The notes below the pieces were generated by a model that was not told where the DNA came from, made no database searches, and was given only the letters and a program-made list of their open reading frames with translations. From Sulfitobacter litoralis (GTDB taxonomy: Bacteria > Pseudomonadota > Alphaproteobacteria > Rhodobacterales > Rhodobacteraceae): DNA of 64,000 bases. The stretch is from positions 62,001-126,000 of the forward strand of contig NZ_FNJD01000007.1 in assembly GCF_900103185.1 (NCBI RefSeq), in the 5' to 3' direction. Below, one piece after another: positions 27,874 to 48,567 of the stretch. A program made the position numbers and the translations under genes. Every line of letters begins with the position of its first letter. Within the stretch, counting starts at the first letter, position 1.

Positions 27874-27900
27874 GTATTAACCCAGCGTTAATTGCTGGGT

Positions 27901-36978: not shown

Positions 36979-38128
36979 GGATTGGCGTCAGGGCGGCTTT
37001 GGCCTTTATATTCATTGGCCTTTCTGCGAGGCTAAATGCCCCTATTGTGACTTTAACAGCCATGTTAGTCGCTCAATTGACCAACGCGCTTGGCGTGACG
37101 CCTATCTGTCAGAGCTGGAACGCGGCGCGGCCGAAACCCAAGGGCGTGTGTTGAACGCTGTCTTTTTCGGCGGCGGCACCCCAAGCCTGATGGACCCTGA
37201 CGTCGTCGCGGACGTCATCGCCGCAATCCGGCGCCTTTGGCCAACAGCTAATGACTTGGAAATTACACTTGAAGCGAACCCAGGCTCGGTTGAGGCCGAT
37301 CGCTTCGCCGCCTTCCGACAGGCCGGCGTTAACCGTATTTCTATGGGGATACAGGCGCTGAACGACGCTGACCTGAAACGGCTTGGGCGTATTCATACTA
37401 TAGCAGAGGGGCTGGCAGCGTTCGATATTGCCCGCACGACATTTGACCGCGTCAGCTTTGATTTGATCTATGGACGCCAGAATCAGACTTTAGCTGACTG
37501 GCAGACCGAGCTAAAGCAGGCCCTATCCCTCGCGATAGACCATATGTCTTTGTACCAATTGACGATCGAACAAGGCACCGCCTTTGGGGATCGCTATGCG
37601 GTCGGAAAACTTCGCGGGCTTCCGACCGATGACCTTGGCGCCGATATGTATGCTGCAACCCAGGACATTTGCGGAGAGATGGGTATGCCATCTTACGAGG
37701 TGTCTAACCATGCGCGCGACGGTGCCCAATCGCGGCATAACCTCATCTACTGGCGGTACGGCGATTACCTAGGCATTGGTCCCGGGGCGCATGGGCGTTT
37801 AACCCAGAATGGTAATCGGTTTGCGACCGAATGCTTCAGCAATCCTAAACGCTGGCTTGATGCAAGCGTAAGTGGAGCCACAGAAAAACCCCGCGAGCTG
37901 CTTACCACCGAGGATCAAGGCAGCGAGTTTTTGATGATGGGTCTGCGCTTGAAAGAAGGTGTCGACCTTCGACGTTACGAGGCCCTCGCGGGTGCCCCCC
38001 TATCAACAAAGAAAATCACCCAGATGCAGGACATCGGGATGATTTCTAGCGTTCAAGATCAGCTTTTCGTCACGGATCAGGGCTTTATGGTGCTGAACGC
38101 TATCCTGGCCGAGCTATTGTCTGACTAA
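36971..38128 (+). CDS. hemW: Radical SAM heme chaperone HemW
   Basis: HemN-like radical SAM protein of 385 residues that binds and delivers heme rather than oxidising coproporphyrinogen. The cluster cysteines are C19, C23, C26 (CEAKCPYCDF), typical of HemW in carrying no extra N-terminal extension of HemN; FFGGGTPSLM, TLEANPGSVE and GIGPGAHGRL follow. The start is TTG 36971 inside the rdgB end (8-nt overlap) with no visible ribosome site. Ends tail to tail with parB, overlapping 4 nt. Confidence 0.94.
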   Translation: MTEDWRQGGFGLYIHWPFCEAKCPYCDFNSHVSRSIDQRAWRDAYLSELERGAAETQGRVLNAVFFGGGTPSLMDPDVVADVIAAIRRLWPTANDLEITLEANPGSVEADRFAAFRQAGVNRISMGIQALNDADLKRLGRIHTIAEGLAAFDIARTTFDRVSFDLIYGRQNQTLADWQTELKQALSLAIDHMSLYQLTIEQGTAFGDRYAVGKLRGLPTDDLGADMYAATQDICGEMGMPSYEVSNHARDGAQSRHNLIYWRYGDYLGIGPGAHGRLTQNGNRFATECFSNPKRWLDASVSGATEKPRELLTTEDQGSEFLMMGLRLKEGVDLRRYEALAGAPLSTKKITQMQDIGMISSVQDQLFVTDQGFMVLNAILAELLSD

Positions 38129-39012
38129 GAAGCCGACAAACGTTGGCAGAGCTCGTCCAGCTCATCCATCGTTGTGTAATGCAATACCATCTGGCCGGCT
38201 TCCTGCCCGGGTTTATGGTTAAGCGTTACCTTTAGGCCCAGATTAGCCGACAGATCCCCCTCAAGTGCGCGGGTGTCTGCATCTTTCTCACCTGTCGGAC
38301 GCGCAGTGCGCTTTTCGGAGCCTCCGTTTTCGGCCTGATGCTCTTTCTTGATCAAAGCCTCGGCAGCCCGTACTGACAAGCCACCTGCAATAATCTGCTT
38401 CGCCAACTTTTCAGGGTTCTTTGACGGCACCAAGGTCCGTGCGTGTCCGGCCGTCAGATCACCCTGCCGTACCAGTTCCAGCACATCTTCGGGCAGGTTC
38501 AAAAGCCGCAGCAAGTTCGCAATATGGCTTCGACTTTTACCCAAGGCTTCAGCCATTTTTTCCTGCGTGTGCCCGAAACGATCCATCAGCTGCCGATACC
38601 CTGCAGCTTCTTCAATCGAGTTGAGGTCCGCGCGCTGAATGTTTTCGATAATCGCGACTTCAAGAACTTCAACGTCGGTAAATTCGCGAACAATGATCGG
38701 CAGCTCGTGCAGCTGCGCCATCTGTGACGCACGCCAGCGCCGTTCACCGGCAACAATCTCGAAGGTTCCGTCGTCGCGGCGGCGCACGATCAGCGGCTGG
38801 ATAACGCCCTTTTCGCGGATCGAATTTGCGAGGTCATCCAGATCCTGCGGATCAAACCGCTTGCGTGGCTGCTCCGGGTTAGGAGAAATTTTTTCAATCG
38901 GAACATATTGTTCCGCTGCGCCTTCTGATGCCACCGTTTGTGTCTCCGCTACATCTGCCATCAACGCCGACAATCCGCGGCCCAAACCGCGTCGTTTGTC
39001 TCTATCTGCCAT
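38125..39012 (-). CDS. parB: Chromosome partitioning protein ParB
   Basis: CTP-dependent DNA clamp that loads at parS and spreads, organising the origin region. The 295-residue protein has the alphaproteobacterial N-terminus RRGLGRGLSALMAD (ParA-stimulating), ISPNPEQPRKRF, the CTP-binding GERRWRAS (89-96), IIENIQRADLNSIEEA, a helix-turn-helix (THEQ-type region GHTQEKMAEALGKSRSHIAN) and a C-terminal dimer domain. Lies 15 nt behind parA. Two parS sites for it occur at 40391 and 42281. Confidence 0.97.
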   Translation of the reverse strand: MADRDKRRGLGRGLSALMADVAETQTVASEGAAEQYVPIEKISPNPEQPRKRFDPQDLDDLANSIREKGVIQPLIVRRRDDGTFEIVAGERRWRASQMAQLHELPIIVREFTDVEVLEVAIIENIQRADLNSIEEAAGYRQLMDRFGHTQEKMAEALGKSRSHIANLLRLLNLPEDVLELVRQGDLTAGHARTLVPSKNPEKLAKQIIAGGLSVRAAEALIKKEHQAENGGSEKRTARPTGEKDADTRALEGDLSANLGLKVTLNHKPGQEAGQMVLHYTTMDELDELCQRLSAS

Positions 39013-39027
39013 TGTCTGACCCCTTAT

Positions 39028-39828
39028 TTATATAACACTATTTGCCAGTACTTCTTGCGCAAGATCGCGATATGCTTTCGCTCCCTTCGATCCACTGTCA
39101 TAGCTCAAAACCGGCATCGCATAGCTCGGTGCCTCGCTAACACGGACATTCCGCGGAATCACAGTTTTATATACCAGCTCACCCAAATTGCTCCGGGCGT
39201 CCTGTTCAACCTGCTGAGACAGATTATTCCGCCGATCATACATCGTCAGAAGAACTCCCTCGATACGCAGGTCTTTATTTCCGTTCTGCCGCACCTCTCG
39301 AATTGTAAGCATCAGCTGCGAGAGACCTTCCAAAGCAAAAAATTCGCTTTGTAGTGGCACCAGAACTGAATGCGCCGCAATCATCGCGTTCACTGTCAGC
39401 AAGTTCAGCGATGGGGGGCAGTCGATCAATATATAGTCAAATGCGTAGCTGTCCATTTGGGTCTGACGCAAAGCATCATGCAAAAGAAAGCTGCGCTTCT
39501 CATTGGAGATAAGCTCCATATCTGCCGAGCTCAGGTCAACCGTCGCAGCAACGATATGCAAACCCTTCGTCTCGGTCGACATGATAACCTGGTCTAGATC
39601 AATATCTTCGAGCAATAATTCGTAAGTTGTGAATTCTCTATCATCAAGCTCGATGCCCAAACCCGTCGATGCATTCCCCTGCGGGTCTAAGTCTATCACA
39701 AGAACACGTTGCTTTTGCTCGACCAATGCGGCAGCCAAATTAATCGTCGTTGTGGTTTTGCCCACCCCACCCTTCTGGTTCGCAATTGCGATAATCTTTG
39801 GTCCTGATGGCCGAGACAGGTCAGACAT
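39028..39828 (-). CDS. parA: Chromosome partitioning ATPase ParA
   Basis: Walker-type ATPase of 266 residues that forms the nucleoid gradient moving ParB-parS complexes. The deviant Walker A is KGGVGKTTT (19-27) with the signature lysine; Walker A' LVIDLDPQGNAST and Walker B LIDCPPSLNLLT follow. It overlaps the rsmG end by 8 nt and precedes parB, the normal alphaproteobacterial order near the origin. Confidence 0.97.
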   Translation of the reverse strand: MSDLSRPSGPKIIAIANQKGGVGKTTTTINLAAALVEQKQRVLVIDLDPQGNASTGLGIELDDREFTTYELLLEDIDLDQVIMSTETKGLHIVAATVDLSSADMELISNEKRSFLLHDALRQTQMDSYAFDYILIDCPPSLNLLTVNAMIAAHSVLVPLQSEFFALEGLSQLMLTIREVRQNGNKDLRIEGVLLTMYDRRNNLSQQVEQDARSNLGELVYKTVIPRNVRVSEAPSYAMPVLSYDSGSKGAKAYRDLAQEVLANSVI

Positions 39829-40426
39829 GTTTGATTTCCTTGATCTTAAGGATTGCGGCAGCGCTGTTCGTCTTACTCGGGATCGCCTCGCAGGTATAGG
39901 CCCACTTCAATTTTGCCACGCTATGCTCTTCACGCCAATTTCCGCCCTTCGGAAAGAGTGCAGTTCCAGATGGGCTCATATGAAGGCTCGCAAATCCCAT
40001 GAGGGTAGATAGATCGGCGAGTGCCCGTGCGCTAAGCACATCTGCAGACAATGGCTCGATGGACTCAATCCGATGATTTACCACCAGCGCGCTGAGATTA
40101 AGTTCGCGAATGGCCGTGCGCAGAAATACACACTTTCTCTGATCGCTCTCGACTAGGGTGAATCTGGTATCTCTTCCCTCTTGCTCTGCCATTAGGGCAA
40201 GTATTATTGCAGGGAAGCCGCCCCCACTGCCTAAATCGACCCAATGGTCCGCCTTTGGTGCGTGGGCATAAAGCTGCATAGAATCCCGAATATGCCGATC
40301 CCACAGTTCGGAGACGCTAGACTTGGAAACGAGATTAATCTTCGCCGTCCATTTTTCTACGAGATCTGAAAAAAGCTCGAGCTTTTTTAATGTTTCACGT
40401 GAAACATCGCCCTCTGGTACCGTCAT
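39821..40426 (-). CDS. rsmG: 16S rRNA (guanine527-N7)-methyltransferase RsmG
   Basis: SAM-dependent methyltransferase (GidB) of 201 residues acting on 16S rRNA. SAM motif VDLGSGGGFPAIILA, catalytic region VESDQRKCVFLRTA and SARALADLSTL are visible. Codons for Val8-Ser-Arg-Glu-Thr are contributed by a perfect parS site (40391-40406), so the VSRET sequence is fixed by partition function. The ATG overlaps the mnmG stop by one base (TAATG); its own stop overlaps parA by 8 nt. Confidence 0.96.
   Translation of the reverse strand: MTVPEGDVSRETLKKLELFSDLVEKWTAKINLVSKSSVSELWDRHIRDSMQLYAHAPKADHWVDLGSGGGFPAIILALMAEQEGRDTRFTLVESDQRKCVFLRTAIRELNLSALVVNHRIESIEPLSADVLSARALADLSTLMGFASLHMSPSGTALFPKGGNWREEHSVAKLKWAYTCEAIPSKTNSAAAILKIKEIKHV
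40391..40406. promoter_or_regulatory. parS centromere site 1 (inside rsmG)
   Basis: The perfect 16-bp palindrome TGTTTCACGTGAAACA, identical to the consensus chromosomal parS bound by ParB. It lies in the 5' coding part of rsmG, 5.3 kb from the predicted origin core and 1.4 kb upstream of the parB start. Confidence 0.95.
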
Positions 40427-42297
40427 TATGCTGACTTCTTTCGGCTGTCACGTTTGAGATGTGACAGTAGCAGCGTCAGAGCAGATGGAGTCATGCCATC
40501 AATTCGGGCTGCTTGGGACAGATTTCCTGGCCGAGAAATCGATAGTTTCGATTTGAGTTCGTTCGACAGGCCATCAATTGAATTATAGTCGAACTCAGTT
40601 GGAATAATATGTGCTTCGTCCTTCCGTAAAAGGTCTATATCCCTTTTTTGGCGCACAATATAATGTGCGTACAGTGCGTCCCGCTCGACCTGACGCCGAA
40701 TTTCCGGCTCGATGATCTCAAGCTCCGGGTTGATATTAATGAGATGTTCGAACGTCACATCTGGAAAAGCTAAAAGTTCGAATCCTGTTCGCTTTGACCC
40801 ATCCTGGCTTACCTTAATCCCAGCAGCCTCTATAGCCTTTGAGGCATAAGCATCTTTGGTAAGTATCGCCATAGCGTCATCGATTTTAGACATCTTGGCC
40901 TGAAAGCGCTCAATCCGCTTCGTACCAGCCACACCCAGTGCGATGGCAATCGGCGTCAACCTTTGGTCGGCATTATCTGCGCGAAGCGAAAGACGGAACT
41001 CAGCGCGCGATGTAAACATCCGATAAGGTTCGGTTACGCCCCGCGTTGTAAGATCATCGATCATTACGCCGATGTAGCTTTCTGACCGGCTAAAAGTAAT
41101 TGATTCCTTACCTTGTGCCAGCAGTCCCGCATTCAATCCTGCGACCAAACCTTGAGCTGCAGCCTCTTCGTACCCCGTCGTGCCGTTAATCTGGCCCGCC
41201 AAAAAAAGTCCCGGTACGCTTCGCACGGAAAGCGTGAGATCGAGGGCCCGGGGGTCTACGTAGTCGTATTCAATCGCATAACCAGGCTGAATGATCTCAA
41301 CCCGCTCTAATCCAACCATAGAACGCACATATTCAAGCTGCACTTCCTCGGGTAAAGATGTAGAAATACCGTTCGGATAAATGGTGTGATCGTCGGCGCC
41401 CTCGGGCTCTAGAAAAACCTGGTGCGAGGTTTTATCCGCAAACCTTACCACCTTATCTTCAATTGAGGGGCAATAGCGCGGTCCAACACCGTCAATATGA
41501 CCGCCATACATCGCAGAACGCGTCAGATTGTTGCGAATAATGTCGTGCGTTTTCTCATTAGTATGCGTGATACCGCAGGAAATTTGACTTGCCGATGTCG
41601 CTTCAGACAAAAACGAAAAAAGTACTGGCTCTGCATCCCCCGGCTGCGATTCAAGTTTCTCCCAGTCAATGGTTCGCCCATCTAGCCGTGGTGGCGTTCC
41701 GGTCTTCAATCGTCCAAGAGGTAAGTCAAATGAATCGATCCGGTTTGCAAGGTCGACTGAAGCTCTGTCGCCCATACGACCCCCAGATCGTGCTCTATCA
41801 CCGATATGAATAACGCCGCGAAGGAACGTGCCTGTTGTCAAAACAACCGCCGCTGCGGAGATTTCCATCCCATCGGACAGTATAGCACCGGCTACGCTGC
41901 CTTTTTTAACGATAAAGTCGGTGACTTCGCCCTCAATTATCTCGAGATTGGCTCGCTGTTCGGTCTCTGAAAGCATTTCGCGACGATATATAGCACGGTC
42001 TGCCTGGGCGCGCGGCCCTTGTACGGCTGGGCCCTTGCGGCGATTTAGAAGGCGAAATTGAATGCCGGCCTTATCTGCGACACGGCCCATTACGCCATCC
42101 ATCGCATCAATTTCACGCACAAGATGACCTTTACCCAATCCGCCTATTGCGGGATTGCAGGACATCACCCCGATTCCATCGCGCGACATTGTTATCAAAG
42201 CGGTACTTGCACCTAATCGAGCTGACGCATGCGCAGCCTCGGCCCCGGCATGTCCCCCACCGATAACAATGACATCAAAATGTTTCACGTGAAACAC
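40426..42297 (-). CDS. mnmG: tRNA uridine 5-carboxymethylaminomethyl modification enzyme MnmG
   Basis: FAD-dependent partner of MnmE modifying the wobble uridine of tRNAs (GidA). The 623-residue protein has the FAD fold [17 protein letters not shown] (13-29), [36 protein letters not shown] and GYEEAAAQG signatures. GTG 42297 is the first base triplet adjoining a parS palindrome and gives the usual MFHVKH start; a second GTG at 42288 has a better-spaced GGAG site. It begins 5 nt after mnmE and overlaps rsmG by one base. Confidence 0.96.
42281..42296. promoter_or_regulatory. parS centromere site 2 (at the mnmG start)
   Basis: A second perfect TGTTTCACGTGAAACA palindrome. It spans the 5' end of mnmG, including two bases of the GTG 42297 start codon, and encodes its FHVKH residues. 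About 3.4 kb from the predicted origin core. Confidence 0.95.
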
Positions 42298-43619: not shown

Positions 43620-44891
43620 TTAGCTGTTCATCGAGTCGAAGAAATCGGAATTTGACTTCGTTTGCTTCAATTTTCCGATCAGGAATTCGATTGCATCCGT
43701 GGTACCCATCGGGTTCAGGATACGACGCAAGACAAAGGTCTTTTGGAGATCAGTTTTATCAACCAACAGATCTTCTTTTCGTGTGCCGGACTTGAGGATA
43801 TCCATCGCAGGGAAGACGCGTTTGTCTGCGATCTTGCGATCGAGGACGATTTCGGAGTTACCGGTCCCTTTGAATTCCTCAAAGATGACTTCGTCCATGC
43901 GGCTGCCGGTGTCGATCAGGGCGGTCGCGATAATGGTCAGCGACCCACCCTCTTCGATATTACGCGCGGCGCCAAAGAATCGTTTAGGACGTTGTAGCGC
44001 ATTCGCATCAACCCCACCGGTCAGGACTTTACCCGATGATGGTACAACAGTGTTAAAGGCGCGGCCCAAACGGGTGATCGAGTCTAGCAAGATTACGACG
44101 TCGCGCTTGTGTTCAACGAGACGTTTTGCCTTTTCAATGACCATTTCGGACACGGCAACGTGACGGGTTGCAGGCTCGTCGAAAGTCGAGGAGACGACCT
44201 CCCCTTTGACACTACGCTGCATATCAGTGACTTCTTCGGGACGTTCATCGATCAGCAAAACGATCAAATAGCACTCTGGGTGGTTCTTTTCGATCGAATT
44301 GGCGATATTTTGCAGCAGAACGGTTTTACCAGTCCGTGGCGGCGCCACGATCAAACAACGTTGGCCTTTACCAATGGGCGACACCAGATCGATGATACGT
44401 GCCGAGCGGTCCTTGATCGTCGGATCATCCACCTCCATCGTGAGACGTTCGTCGGGATAGAGCGGCGTAAGGTTTTCAAATGCAACCTTGTGCCGTGCTT
44501 TTTCGGGCGCCTCAAAGTTGATTTTGGTCACTTCAGTCAGTGCAAAGTAACGTTCGGTATCATCCGGCGCCTTGATCAAACCTTCGATCGTGTCCCCCGT
44601 GCGCAGCGAATGCTGGCGGATCATCTCGGGCGAAACATAAATATCATCGGGGCCTGGCAGGTAGTTTGCCTCGGGCGAGCGCAGGAACCCGAAGCCGTCC
44701 TGCAATACTTCCAGCACACCATCGCCAGAGATTTCCCACCCTTCATCCGCGCGTTCGCGCAGGATCTGGAACATCATCTCGCCTTTACGCATCGTAGATG
44801 CGTTTTCGATCTCAAGCTCTTCGGCCATCGCCAAAAGATTCTTAGGCGTCTGCGCCTTTAGATCGGCAAGGTTAAGTGTTTCAGTTGTCAT
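43620..44891 (-). CDS. rho: Transcription termination factor Rho
   Basis: Hexameric RNA helicase ending unprotected transcripts. The 423-residue protein has the N-terminal helical and cold-shock-like RNA-binding domain ([20 protein letters not shown]), the ATPase with [14 protein letters not shown] Walker [14 protein letters not shown] and the Q/R-loop [23 protein letters not shown] 44891 has an AGGATAT site. A good promoter and a small GC hairpin lie in its leader, in line with known Rho autoregulation in other bacteria. Transcription may run on through mnmE-mnmG-rsmG-parAB. Confidence 0.97.
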
Positions 44892-44980
44892 GGAAATATC
44901 CTGTTCCGGTCCCGGAATACGGGCGGGTCGTGTCATAAAAATGGGCAGATTAATACAAACCCCGGACGGGGTGCAGCAAA

Positions 44981-45014: not shown

Positions 45015-45464
45015 TTAGAATTTCACGACGACCGAGAACACTATGATGATCATCAGCAGCGTCGGTACTTCGTTCATGATCCGGTAACGTTTACCGCTTA
45101 GGCTGTTCTCACCGGCTGCAAAGGCCCGCACACGCCCGACAAGCCACCCGTGAAAGCCCGTCATCGCAAACACGCTGGCGCCCTTCGTCCACGGCCAGAC
45201 AGCGGCCCAATCAACGATGCCGGGCGTCAGAACCAGCGCCAGCCCAAAGATCCACGTGCCGATCATCGCAGGACGCATGATGACTGTGGCCAGCTTGTAC
45301 TCCATCATTTTGAAAAGATCATGGGTTTGGCCAGTTTGGCCTACCTGCTCTGTATGATGCACGAGAAGGCGCGGCAGATAAAATAGCGCTGCCATCCACG
45401 AAATGACCGAAATGATATGAAGCGATTTTACCCAAGGATAGGCGATGGCAAGCAGGTCGGTCAT
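45015..45464 (-). CDS. hemJ: Protoporphyrinogen oxidase HemJ
   Basis: Heme-dependent membrane enzyme oxidising protoporphyrinogen IX, the step before ferrochelatase. The 149-residue protein has four membrane segments with conserved His in VKSLHIISVISWMAALFYL, the KMMEYKLATVIMRPAM segment and MTGFHGWLVGRVRAFA, plus RIMNEVPTLLMI, all typical of HemJ (formerly a hypothetical CopD-like protein). GGAGTC precedes the ATG. Its start faces the predicted oriC, so its promoter lies at the edge of the origin. Confidence 0.93.
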   Translation of the reverse strand: MTDLLAIAYPWVKSLHIISVISWMAALFYLPRLLVHHTEQVGQTGQTHDLFKMMEYKLATVIMRPAMIGTWIFGLALVLTPGIVDWAAVWPWTKGASVFAMTGFHGWLVGRVRAFAAGENSLSGKRYRIMNEVPTLLMIIIVFSVVVKF

Positions 45465-45545
45465 GTCAGACTCCGGTTTGGGCCTTCTTACTAATATAAA
45501 TAAGAAAAGAAGAAAGATGATGATGTAAGTAGGGAGACCATTTTC

Positions 45546-45554
45546 TGTGGATTA
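45546..45554 (-). promoter_or_regulatory. DnaA-box-like site
   Basis: TGTGGATTA on the plus strand, i.e. TAATCCACA, one mismatch to TTATCCACA. Confidence 0.55.
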
Positions 45555-45571
45555 CTGTTTTGTACCTCGAT

Positions 45572-45580
45572 TTATCCACC
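45572..45580 (+). promoter_or_regulatory. DnaA-box-like site
   Basis: TTATCCACC, one mismatch (last base) to TTATCCACA; opposite orientation to the site 18 bp to its left. Confidence 0.6.
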
Positions 45581-45689
45581 TGTGTACTTCGTAAATCCTC
45601 TGACAGTGATAAGTCACAGGATGCCAAATTAAAATTATTATTTTCAGTGGGTTATTCGAAAAAAAATCGGGGGATAAACTGTGTAGGTC

Positions 45690-45698
45690 TGTGGATAA
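45690..45698 (-). promoter_or_regulatory. Perfect DnaA box
   Basis: TGTGGATAA on the plus strand is the exact reverse complement of the consensus TTATCCACA. It lies just right of the AT-rich block. Confidence 0.8.
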
Positions 45699-45860
45699 GC
45701 TTGGGATTAACTCCGTTCAGGGGAATTCGGATTTATCCTTATGCCTGCCCGTATAAAACGGGAAATTCCGGCTGGAGGGCATGGGTTTTCCCGACGGTTT
45801 TGCGGACCCTCGCCATTCGGGGGAAAAATCCCTAAGAACTTCCTAGCGTCGCACACAGGT

Positions 45861-45869
45861 TTATCCCCA
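45861..45869 (+). promoter_or_regulatory. DnaA-box-like site at the maf start
   Basis: TTATCCCCA, one mismatch to consensus; its last base is the A of the maf start codon. Confidence 0.45.
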
Positions 45870-46468
45870 TGCCCCAACGTCTCATTCTCGCCTCCGGCTC
45901 GTCGATCCGGTCACAGTTGCTGCAACAGGCTTGCGTCCCTCACGAGGTGAGCGTCGCCCAAATTGATGAACAAATGATTAAGATGGCCCTGCTGTCAGAG
46001 CAGGCGCCCCCACGCGACATCGCCGATACACTGGCAGAGATGAAAGCCCGCAAGGTCAGCGACAAGACCCCCGGCGCGCTGGTACTAGGCTGCGATCAAG
46101 TGCTCGACCATCGCGGCACGCTGCTGTCGAAACCCGCCACGCCCGACGAAGCGATCGCGCAGCTGAAATCCCTGCGGGGTGATCGCCATAGTTTGTTGTC
46201 CGCTGCGGTTATCGTCGAAGACGGCAAACCGATCTGGCGCCACGTGGGTCAGGTACGGTTGCGGATGCGCGATGCTTCGGATGACTATATACAAGACTAC
46301 GTCGCGCGAAACTGGGACAGTATTAGCCACGCGGTTGGAGCCTATAAGCTGGAGGAAGAAGGCGTCAGGCTGTTCAGCGGCATTGAAGGGGATTACTTTA
46401 ATGTCCTAGGGTTACCCCTGCTTGAATTGTTGAATTATCTGACGCTACGGGGGGATTTATCCGCATGA
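45869..46468 (+). CDS. maf: Maf-family nucleotide pyrophosphatase
   Basis: Nucleoside triphosphate pyrophosphatase of 199 residues acting on non-canonical or modified nucleotides. N-terminal loop LILASGSSIRSQLL, catalytic-base region LVLGCDQVLDHRG, the LSKPATPDEAIAQLKSLRG segment and the closing FSGIEGDYFNVLGLPLLELL are typical. Within Maf, this resembles the YceF-like alphaproteobacterial branch; exact nucleotide preference is uncertain. First gene right of the predicted oriC; overlaps aroE by 4 nt. Confidence 0.93.
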   Translation: MPQRLILASGSSIRSQLLQQACVPHEVSVAQIDEQMIKMALLSEQAPPRDIADTLAEMKARKVSDKTPGALVLGCDQVLDHRGTLLSKPATPDEAIAQLKSLRGDRHSLLSAAVIVEDGKPIWRHVGQVRLRMRDASDDYIQDYVARNWDSISHAVGAYKLEEEGVRLFSGIEGDYFNVLGLPLLELLNYLTLRGDLSA

Positions 46469-47888: not shown

Positions 47889-48567
47889 GATTGTGCTGGA
47901 TACGGAAACCACCGGATTCGACCCTCAAAGCGGCGATAGGATCGTAGAAATCGGCGCGGTTGAACTGATCGGGCATGTGGCGACGGGCAATACCTATCAC
48001 CAGTATATCAATCCCGAGCGCAGCATGCCCGCCGAGGCATTCGAGGTGCACGGGCTAGGCGACGAGTTCCTGCGCGATAAACCCAAGTTTGCGCAGATCG
48101 GGCAGGAATTTCTGGATTTCATCGGCGATTCAAAGCTGGTGATCCACAATGCGGCCTTTGACATCAAATTCCTGAATGCTGAACTCAAGTGGATGGGCCT
48201 GCCCCAGATCCCATGGGAACAGGCGCTGGATACGCTTGCCATCGCACGCAAACGCTTTCCTGGGTCGCCGGCGTCGCTGGATGCGCTCTGCCGTCGTTTC
48301 GGCATCGACAACGCATCGCGCACGCTGCACGGGGCTTTGCTTGATAGTGAAATTCTCGCGGAGGTGTATCTTGAACTGATTGGCGGGCGGCAGCCTGATT
48401 TCGGTCTGTCGACCAAGCCAGAGCGCAAAGAAGGTGATACCACCCCTGACTGGACACCCAAACCGCGCCCGACGCCCCTGCCCTCGCGGATTACCCCGCA
48501 AGAGACTGCCGCCCATACCGAATTTGTCGATAAACTGGGCGACAGCGCTGTGTGGAAGACGCTTTAG
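47881..48567 (+). CDS. dnaQ: DNA polymerase III epsilon subunit (proofreading exonuclease)
   Basis: 3'-5' exonuclease of the replicative polymerase. The 228-residue protein has DEDDh motifs: ExoI VLDTETTGFDP with Asp7 and Glu9, ExoII VIHNAAFDIKFLNAEL, and ExoIII with His/Asp in RTLHGALLDSEILAEVY. The C-terminal tail, which binds the alpha subunit, is Pro-rich and ends with a short helical region. ATG 47881 follows AAAGGAAAGC inside coaE. Convergent with secB (4-nt overlap). Confidence 0.96.
   Translation: MREIVLDTETTGFDPQSGDRIVEIGAVELIGHVATGNTYHQYINPERSMPAEAFEVHGLGDEFLRDKPKFAQIGQEFLDFIGDSKLVIHNAAFDIKFLNAELKWMGLPQIPWEQALDTLAIARKRFPGSPASLDALCRRFGIDNASRTLHGALLDSEILAEVYLELIGGRQPDFGLSTKPERKEGDTTPDWTPKPRPTPLPSRITPQETAAHTEFVDKLGDSAVWKTL

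Follow-up and report, generated by a model that had tools for sequence, protein, structure and literature searches.

Two described systems are closest to the locus examined here. The first is Cori of Caulobacter crescentus, which is described as flanked by hemE and COG1806 (PMC1914354). The second is the basal unwinding system, which is defined by one or more DnaA boxes, a spacer no longer than 16 bp (13 bp being the commonest length), and at least three A-centered trios (PMC8287927). In the DnaA protein of Bacillus subtilis, Asn187 is reported to contact the central adenine, while Arg202 and Glu228 contact guanine (PMC10721633). For the Rhodobacteraceae, Kopejtka et al. (2019) describe origins for 101 members that were assigned with Ori-Finder; the criteria given are DnaA boxes, the GC-disparity minimum, a local GC minimum, and proximity to parAB (PMC6699656). 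Origin positions from web tools have also been used for D. shibae, R. capsulatus, and other alphaproteobacteria (PMC6473078, PMC8116508).

Here, we characterize a gap between hemJ and maf in a 64,000-nucleotide stretch of Sulfitobacter litoralis DNA, referred to below as the window. The closest named hits to its hemJ come from Silicimonas, Rhodobacter, Falsirhodobacter, Planktomarina, Paracoccus, and Palleronia, in keeping with the Rhodobacteraceae. Our reading is that this gap is very probably the chromosomal oriC and the positional orthologue of Cori, after both of the flanking genes of Cori were lost from its borders. A preliminary description of the window had already proposed the replication origin at this place, and the polarity flip, the parS sites, the orthology with Cori, and the conserved box pattern reported below all support that proposal.

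The hemJ/maf gap and its DnaA boxes

The open reading frame layout of the window leaves 404 bp without coding sequence between hemJ on the minus strand and maf on the plus strand, which agrees with the preliminary description of a noncoding stretch where gene direction switches from minus to plus. The named genes to the left, parB, parA, rsmG, mnmG, mnmE, rho, and hemJ, are read leftward, and those to the right, maf, aroE, coaE, and dnaQ, are read rightward. The G+C content is 43.6% in the gap versus 57.4% across the window. An AT-rich block had been noted in the gap, and there are in fact two, the least stable stretch near hemJ (Table 1) and a second at about 45624 to 45668. Rfam and tRNA scans of the window returned nothing.

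TABLE 1 Features of the predicted origin and its surroundings, with positions counted from the first letter of the window
Feature	Position	Strand	Remarks
parB	38125-39012	-	
parA	39028-39828	-	ParA/MinD superfamily; curated cut-off reached by none among 25 of the 31 families listed
parS	40391-40406		Inside rsmG coding sequence near its start; 5.1 kb from gap
parS	42281-42296		Inside first codons of mnmG; 3.2 kb from gap
rho	43620-44936	-	
hemJ	45015-45464	-	Left border of predicted origin; Pfam PF03653 above cut-off; TIGR00701 at 126.7 bits, under its cut-off of 138
Predicted chromosomal oriC	45465-45868		Gap between hemJ and maf; DnaA boxes, polarity flip, parS, conservation
Probable DNA unwinding element	45487-45531	+	Least stable 45-bp stretch; A/G-rich on plus strand
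Conserved unwinding-side motif	45516-45532	+	GATGATGATGTAAGTAG; family form GATGATG-n5/6-GTAG
Slot of proximal DnaA box (GTAG+4)	45537-45545	-	Decayed in window (1/9 bases); filled in 16/67 gaps
DnaA box 1	45546-45554	-	TAATCCACA, one mismatch; 13 bp past GTAG
DnaA box 2	45572-45580	+	TTATCCACC, one mismatch
IHF-like site	45642-45654	+	One mismatch to WATCARNNNNTTR; at conserved mid-gap place
DnaA box 3	45690-45698	-	TTATCCACA, perfect
Slot of DnaA box 4	45733-45741	+	TTATCCTTA, two mismatches, weak in window; within conserved TTATCC block
Decayed CtrA-like site	45832-45846		Three mismatches to TTAA-N7-TTAA; place where some congeners carry an exact site
DnaA box 5	45861-45869	+	TTATCCCCA, one mismatch; final base is the A of the maf ATG
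maf	45869-46468	+	Right border of predicted origin

The perfect DnaA box and the three one-mismatch boxes that had been claimed for the gap were recovered as box 3 and as boxes 1, 2, and 5, respectively, and box 4 represents the weaker TTATCC-type sites that had also been mentioned. The window as a whole contains 14 sites with at most one mismatch, versus 8.5 expected, and 4 of 100 shuffles reach this number; four of the 14 lie within 324 bp inside the gap. The gap is the best 404-bp cluster of such boxes in the window (four, with two in the next best). Among 1,194,868 bases sampled from two relatives, the sole cluster of more than three was the orthologous gap of one of them, G014 (six boxes); the gap of the other, G012, was split by a stretch boundary in that scan. 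That the densest cluster in the window and, as an orthologue, in the sampled relatives is found at this gap argues for its identity as oriC. A looser consensus, TTWTNCACA with one mismatch allowed, was not specific and was set aside (position 48525 likewise scores 4).

We then aligned orthologous gaps. From 83 entries, 10 failed (3 without maf, 2 without hemJ, and 5 with more than 2 kb between the two genes), and removal of 2 duplicates and 4 long gaps from the 73 that were kept left 67 gaps of 346 to 456 bp, 16 from the genus and 51 from elsewhere. These contain 179 boxes with at most one mismatch, versus 8.0 in shuffles, and 23 perfect boxes, versus 0.4. Box positions and strands are common to the aligned gaps, for which the count by position and strand gives 213 boxes with at most one mismatch. 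Counted from hemJ, boxes on the minus strand cluster at 80 to 100 nt, with a lesser group at 120 to 160 nt and a further one at 200 to 240 nt; boxes on the plus strand are found at 100 to 120 nt, at 240 to 280 nt, and again at the maf end. The conservation of this pattern over the family is a further argument that the gap is oriC. In 33 of the 67 gaps, the box at the maf end covers the A of the maf ATG at a fixed offset, and in 19 it is perfect. Because the box takes in a base of the start codon in this way, the pattern suggests that DnaA at the predicted origin could also control maf.

Sites for other candidate regulators are less uniform. Exact copies of the IHF-like sequence WATCARNNNNTTR are present in 12 of the 67 gaps, versus 2.4 in shuffles, and the enrichment is seen at spacing 4 only; WATCAN5WTR is present in 18, versus 8.2, and in 52 when one mismatch is allowed, versus 35.6. 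The window gap itself has no match to WATCAN5WTR, and we count this, along with its one-mismatch IHF-like copy, against the oriC explanation. A clear TTAA-N7-TTAA site for CtrA had been reported as absent from the gap, and indeed none is present there with at most one mismatch. Exact TTAA-N7-TTAA occurs in 12 of the 67 gaps (other spacings, 0 to 4). Within the genus, 7 of 16 gaps carry the exact sequence, ending 21 to 22 nt before maf, and 2 more differ from it at one base; in the window and the two relatives closest to it, this place is three mismatches away from the consensus. Since some congeners keep the site where it is decayed in the window, its state in the window looks like a loss. The sole exact TTAA-N7-TTAA of the window is at 27877 to 27891, far from the gap, and sites with at most one mismatch number 9, versus 7 expected. 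As a separate observation, GANTC is about 4 times rarer than expected in the window (64 versus 268 in shuffles), a depletion also seen in genomes that have a CcrM-type methylase; the origin gaps of relatives do not show it (112 versus 121).

The hemJ-side module and the DnaA residue at the trio-reading position

The best-conserved block of the 67 gaps is on the hemJ side and consists of an A/G-rich unstable tract, GATGATG, 5 to 6 bases, GTAG, and a DnaA box. In 41 gaps, the start of the least stable 45-mer is no more than 40 nt from hemJ, and in the other 26 this 45-mer is mid-gap. GTAG and GATGATG were placed without use of the box, and boxes with at most two mismatches were then counted at each distance. 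A box follows GTAG at 13 bp in 38 of the 67 gaps and at 4 bp in 16, which we take as another reason to regard the gap as oriC; elsewhere between 0 and 46 bp, the count is 6 at 14 bp and 0 to 2 at the rest, and a further group of 9 is found at 48 bp. Both boxes, with at most two mismatches each, are present in four gaps outside the genus. The distances of 13 and 4 bp differ by the length of one box, which is what a tandem pair would give, and most lineages appear to keep one box of the two. When 20 held-out gaps were scored, 10 exceeded all 40 shuffles for the motif, and in 12 a box stood 13 or 14 bp away from the best match to the motif; the 8 with no box at GTAG+13/14 count against the oriC explanation.

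The strict spelling GATGATG-N5-GTAGGG was also searched in 114 genomes of the class, with a backward control alongside, and matched in 23 genomes versus 7 for the control. We rejected it as a class-wide origin marker, since none of the 13 places read, out of 28 listed, has a box cluster (with one mismatch allowed, 12 lack any box within 650 bp, and 1 has a single box). The motif of the window has a spacing of 6 and so does not match this spelling; the match in its own genome is on another contig.

The distance from the box to TAG in the window is 13 bp, within the box spacing of the basal unwinding system and equal to its commonest spacer, and the window has two consecutive A-centered trios at this conserved box, short of the three in the trio criterion. 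Applied over whole gaps, the trio rule holds in 48 of 67, for the most part beside boxes other than the conserved one; the window is among those that pass, by three trios beside a weak box outside the conserved module. The rule was accordingly tested again at the conserved box in 59 gaps, with the 8 of 67 that have no box near GTAG left out. Only 12 of the 59 have three or more NAN trios no farther than 16 nt from the box, versus 52% for shuffled upstream sequence, so that the rule fails in 47. We count this failure against the oriC explanation. Runs of at least five trios do appear when the spacer is widened to 26 nt (28 of 59 gaps, versus 14% in shuffles), and these start 17 to 25 nt from the box.

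We also examined the residues of DnaA that would read the trios. Alignment of the DnaA of this genome with PDB 8btg places Tyr219, Lys234, and Glu260 at the positions of B. subtilis Asn187, Arg202, and Glu228, and an Arg replaces B. subtilis Asn196. In the solved DnaA structures 2z4r and 2hcb, the residues at the Asn187 place, as read off the alignment, are Asn and Gln. The 59 DnaA sequences read are the best-matching loci from a search of 61 family genomes and 57 genomes from the rest of the class. The residue at the Asn187 place is Tyr in 31 of 31 family proteins and in 26 of 28 proteins from elsewhere in the class, where the other two have Phe.

As a tentative explanation for these observations, alphaproteobacterial DnaA may read a different single-strand code, in which GATGATG-n5/6-GTAG leading into an A-rich strand replaces the canonical 3'-GAT-5' trio run in this family while the box geometry (4 or 13 bp) stays. 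The altered reader residue and the altered code may belong together; their co-occurrence is no proof, because Tyr is found class-wide and the motif was seen only in the family (one strict spelling was searched outside it). An alternative is that the module on the left is an ordinary basal unwinding system that has canonical DnaA-trios, next to which GATGATG is incidental. The trio beside the box is a canonical TAG and the 13-bp spacer is the commonest one in the published description (PMC8287927), as this alternative predicts. We consider it rather unlikely, given that trio runs at the conserved box are scarcer than in shuffled sequence and that the adenine-contacting residue is Tyr (57) or Phe (2) in all 59 alphaproteobacterial DnaA proteins.

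Chromosome-scale polarity, parS sites, and the place of Cori

Since the assembly of this genome is in 63 contigs (3.68 Mb), skew was sampled in relatives. Among 40 relatives searched, G012 is the nearest. Its gap is 98% identical to that of the window, and 20 stretches, one every 155 kb, were sampled over its 3.10-Mb contig. GC skew on the maf side is positive in all but 1 of 10 stretches, the exception adjoining the pole opposite the gap, and on the other side it is negative in 10 of 10. Counts of the KOPS-like oligomer GGGNAGGG are 41:6 on the maf side and 3:45 on the other. Both measures flip at the gap and opposite it. G014 has a weaker form of the same pattern (skew positive in 7 of 10 stretches versus negative in 10 of 10; GGGNAGGG at 30:5 versus 1:23). 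This change of sign between the stretches on either side argues for the gap as oriC. The parS sites argue for it as well, because the only two in the assembly stand beside the gap: exactly two GTTTCACGTGAAAC sites are present assembly-wide, each a full 16-bp palindrome, and both lie in the window and adjoin parAB.

The place of the gap was then followed through the family. Among 150 sampled genomes, 121 have a strong match to hemJ, 141 to maf, and 115 to both, with weak matches left out. In 103 of the 115, hemJ and maf are divergent with the gap alone between them (about 316 to 486 bp); in 11, there are 0.6 to 2.3 kb between the two genes; and in the remaining one (G114), they are on separate contigs. 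The DNA left of maf in G114 shows neither a Rho-sized gene nor the motif, which we count against the gap being oriC. A further 26 of the 150 have a strong maf match and no strong match to the hemJ of the window; 19 of these were fetched, and all 19 have an open frame of 423 to 439 amino acids left of the gap, which is Rho by Pfam in the one tested. Four long gaps of the family were examined with Pfam, and three contain a Kinase-PPPase gene (COG1806) and one contains hemE. One Erythrobacter and one Hyphomicrobiales metagenome-assembled genome, which belong to other groups of the class, have both hemE and COG1806 at the locus. In the genome of the window, hemE is on a different contig, and no match to COG1806 was found in the assembly. 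Because relatives with intermediate gene orders carry hemE and/or COG1806 inside the hemJ/maf gap, the gap occupies the place of Cori, with both Cori flanks lost from its borders.

At a finer scale, the agreement is looser. In cumulative skew, the minimum falls +32 kb from the gap in G012 (about 1% of the chromosome), +33 kb from it in the contig of the window, which ends 49 kb right of the gap, and -22 kb from it in G014, of which a part was fetched. Within about 100 kb of the gap, GGGNAGGG counts to the left and right are 1:13 and 12:9 in G012, 3:10 and 10:6 in the contig of the window, and 7:11 and 1:2 in G014. We count the offset of 22 to 33 kb and the mixed polarity near the gap against the gap being oriC. 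Skew backs the region and not the base pair, with a resolution no better than about 35 kb. The preliminary description had named a skew minimum elsewhere as grounds for abandoning the origin; this check comes out in favor of the gap at the resolution of skew only, the minimum being 22 to 33 kb off.

The offsets in G012 and in the contig of the window leave room for a true origin elsewhere within about 35 kb, for example in another gap to the right, in which case the hemJ/maf gap would be a DnaA-regulated double promoter of hemJ and maf, with a box placed over the maf start codon in the manner of a repressor site. We judge this to be very improbable: every other 404-bp stretch of the window holds at most two boxes with at most one mismatch, the box layout is kept where a Rho-sized gene rather than hemJ borders the gap, and the flank genes of Cori sit exactly at the gap in relatives. 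An origin at dnaA, as in many bacteria, with the gap as a DnaA titration site is scarcely credible even though several few-contig relatives are numbered from dnaA and the distance between dnaA and the gap is about 121 kb in G014, since the dnaA of this genome is on another contig in a 3.5-kb locus with two scattered one-mismatch boxes and no cluster, and polarity flips at the gap in G012 (G014 separates the gap and dnaA poorly). In the few-contig relatives numbered from dnaA (G014, G042, G068, G079, and G083), hemJ/maf is tens to hundreds of kilobases away. Position 1 of the dnaA-numbered genomes of this group would not be the origin.

With the gap read as oriC, the location, boxes, spacing, and conservation seen in the sequence lead us to infer a course of events that includes DnaA and IHF binding, opening in a given direction, loading, and segregation. 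DnaA would bind boxes 1 to 5, with box 4 weak in the window. From box 1, at the left, a DnaA filament would be directed to the left, across GTAG and GATGATG and onto the A-rich strand of the unstable tract (Table 1), which would open there. IHF could bend the middle of the gap and thereby bring in the right-hand boxes, DnaB would be loaded, and ParAB, acting at the two parS sites 3 to 5 kb away, would move the new origin.

Comparison with described origins

Collectively, the sequence data strongly support an origin where one was expected, with a family-specific, probable opening module that shares the box spacing of the basal unwinding system and lacks one of its defining features. An oriC at this gap is no surprise, and the useful part is a blueprint, drawn across the family, of an origin from alphaproteobacteria other than Caulobacter, with a probable opening site and the positions and directions of the boxes. 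It also leads to a sharp prediction: the code for opening should not be the published trio and should be tied to one DnaA residue. In addition, the presence or decay of the CtrA-like site among sister species makes CtrA control of replication comparable within one genus.

By the criteria described by Kopejtka et al., the window gap likewise qualifies as an origin, with the disparity minimum within about 33 kb; the main text of that paper does not contain the words maf, hemJ, or hemE, and we noted no motif architecture in it (PMC6699656). Among titles and abstract openings, which cover few subscription papers and leave supplements aside, we recognized no description of the GATGATG-GTAG module or of Tyr at the trio-reading position. 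The gap resembles the basal unwinding system of B. subtilis oriC, as described, in having one or more boxes beside an unstable tract; in the aligned gaps, the distance from box to proximal TAG is mostly 13 or 4 bp, which matches the distal and the proximal member, respectively, of a tandem box pair (PMC8287927, PMC10721633). It differs in that the run of A-centered triplets mostly does not begin within 16 nt of the box and in that the gaps of the family have a fixed GATGATG-n5/6-GTAG instead. Five CtrA sites are described for Cori, but with one mismatch allowed the window gap still has no such site, and its literal flanks are hemJ and maf rather than hemE and COG1806. In its chromosomal place, its DnaA boxes, its AT-rich gap of about 400 bp, and perhaps its one-mismatch IHF-like site, the window gap is like the Cori that has been described for C. 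crescentus (PMC1914354).
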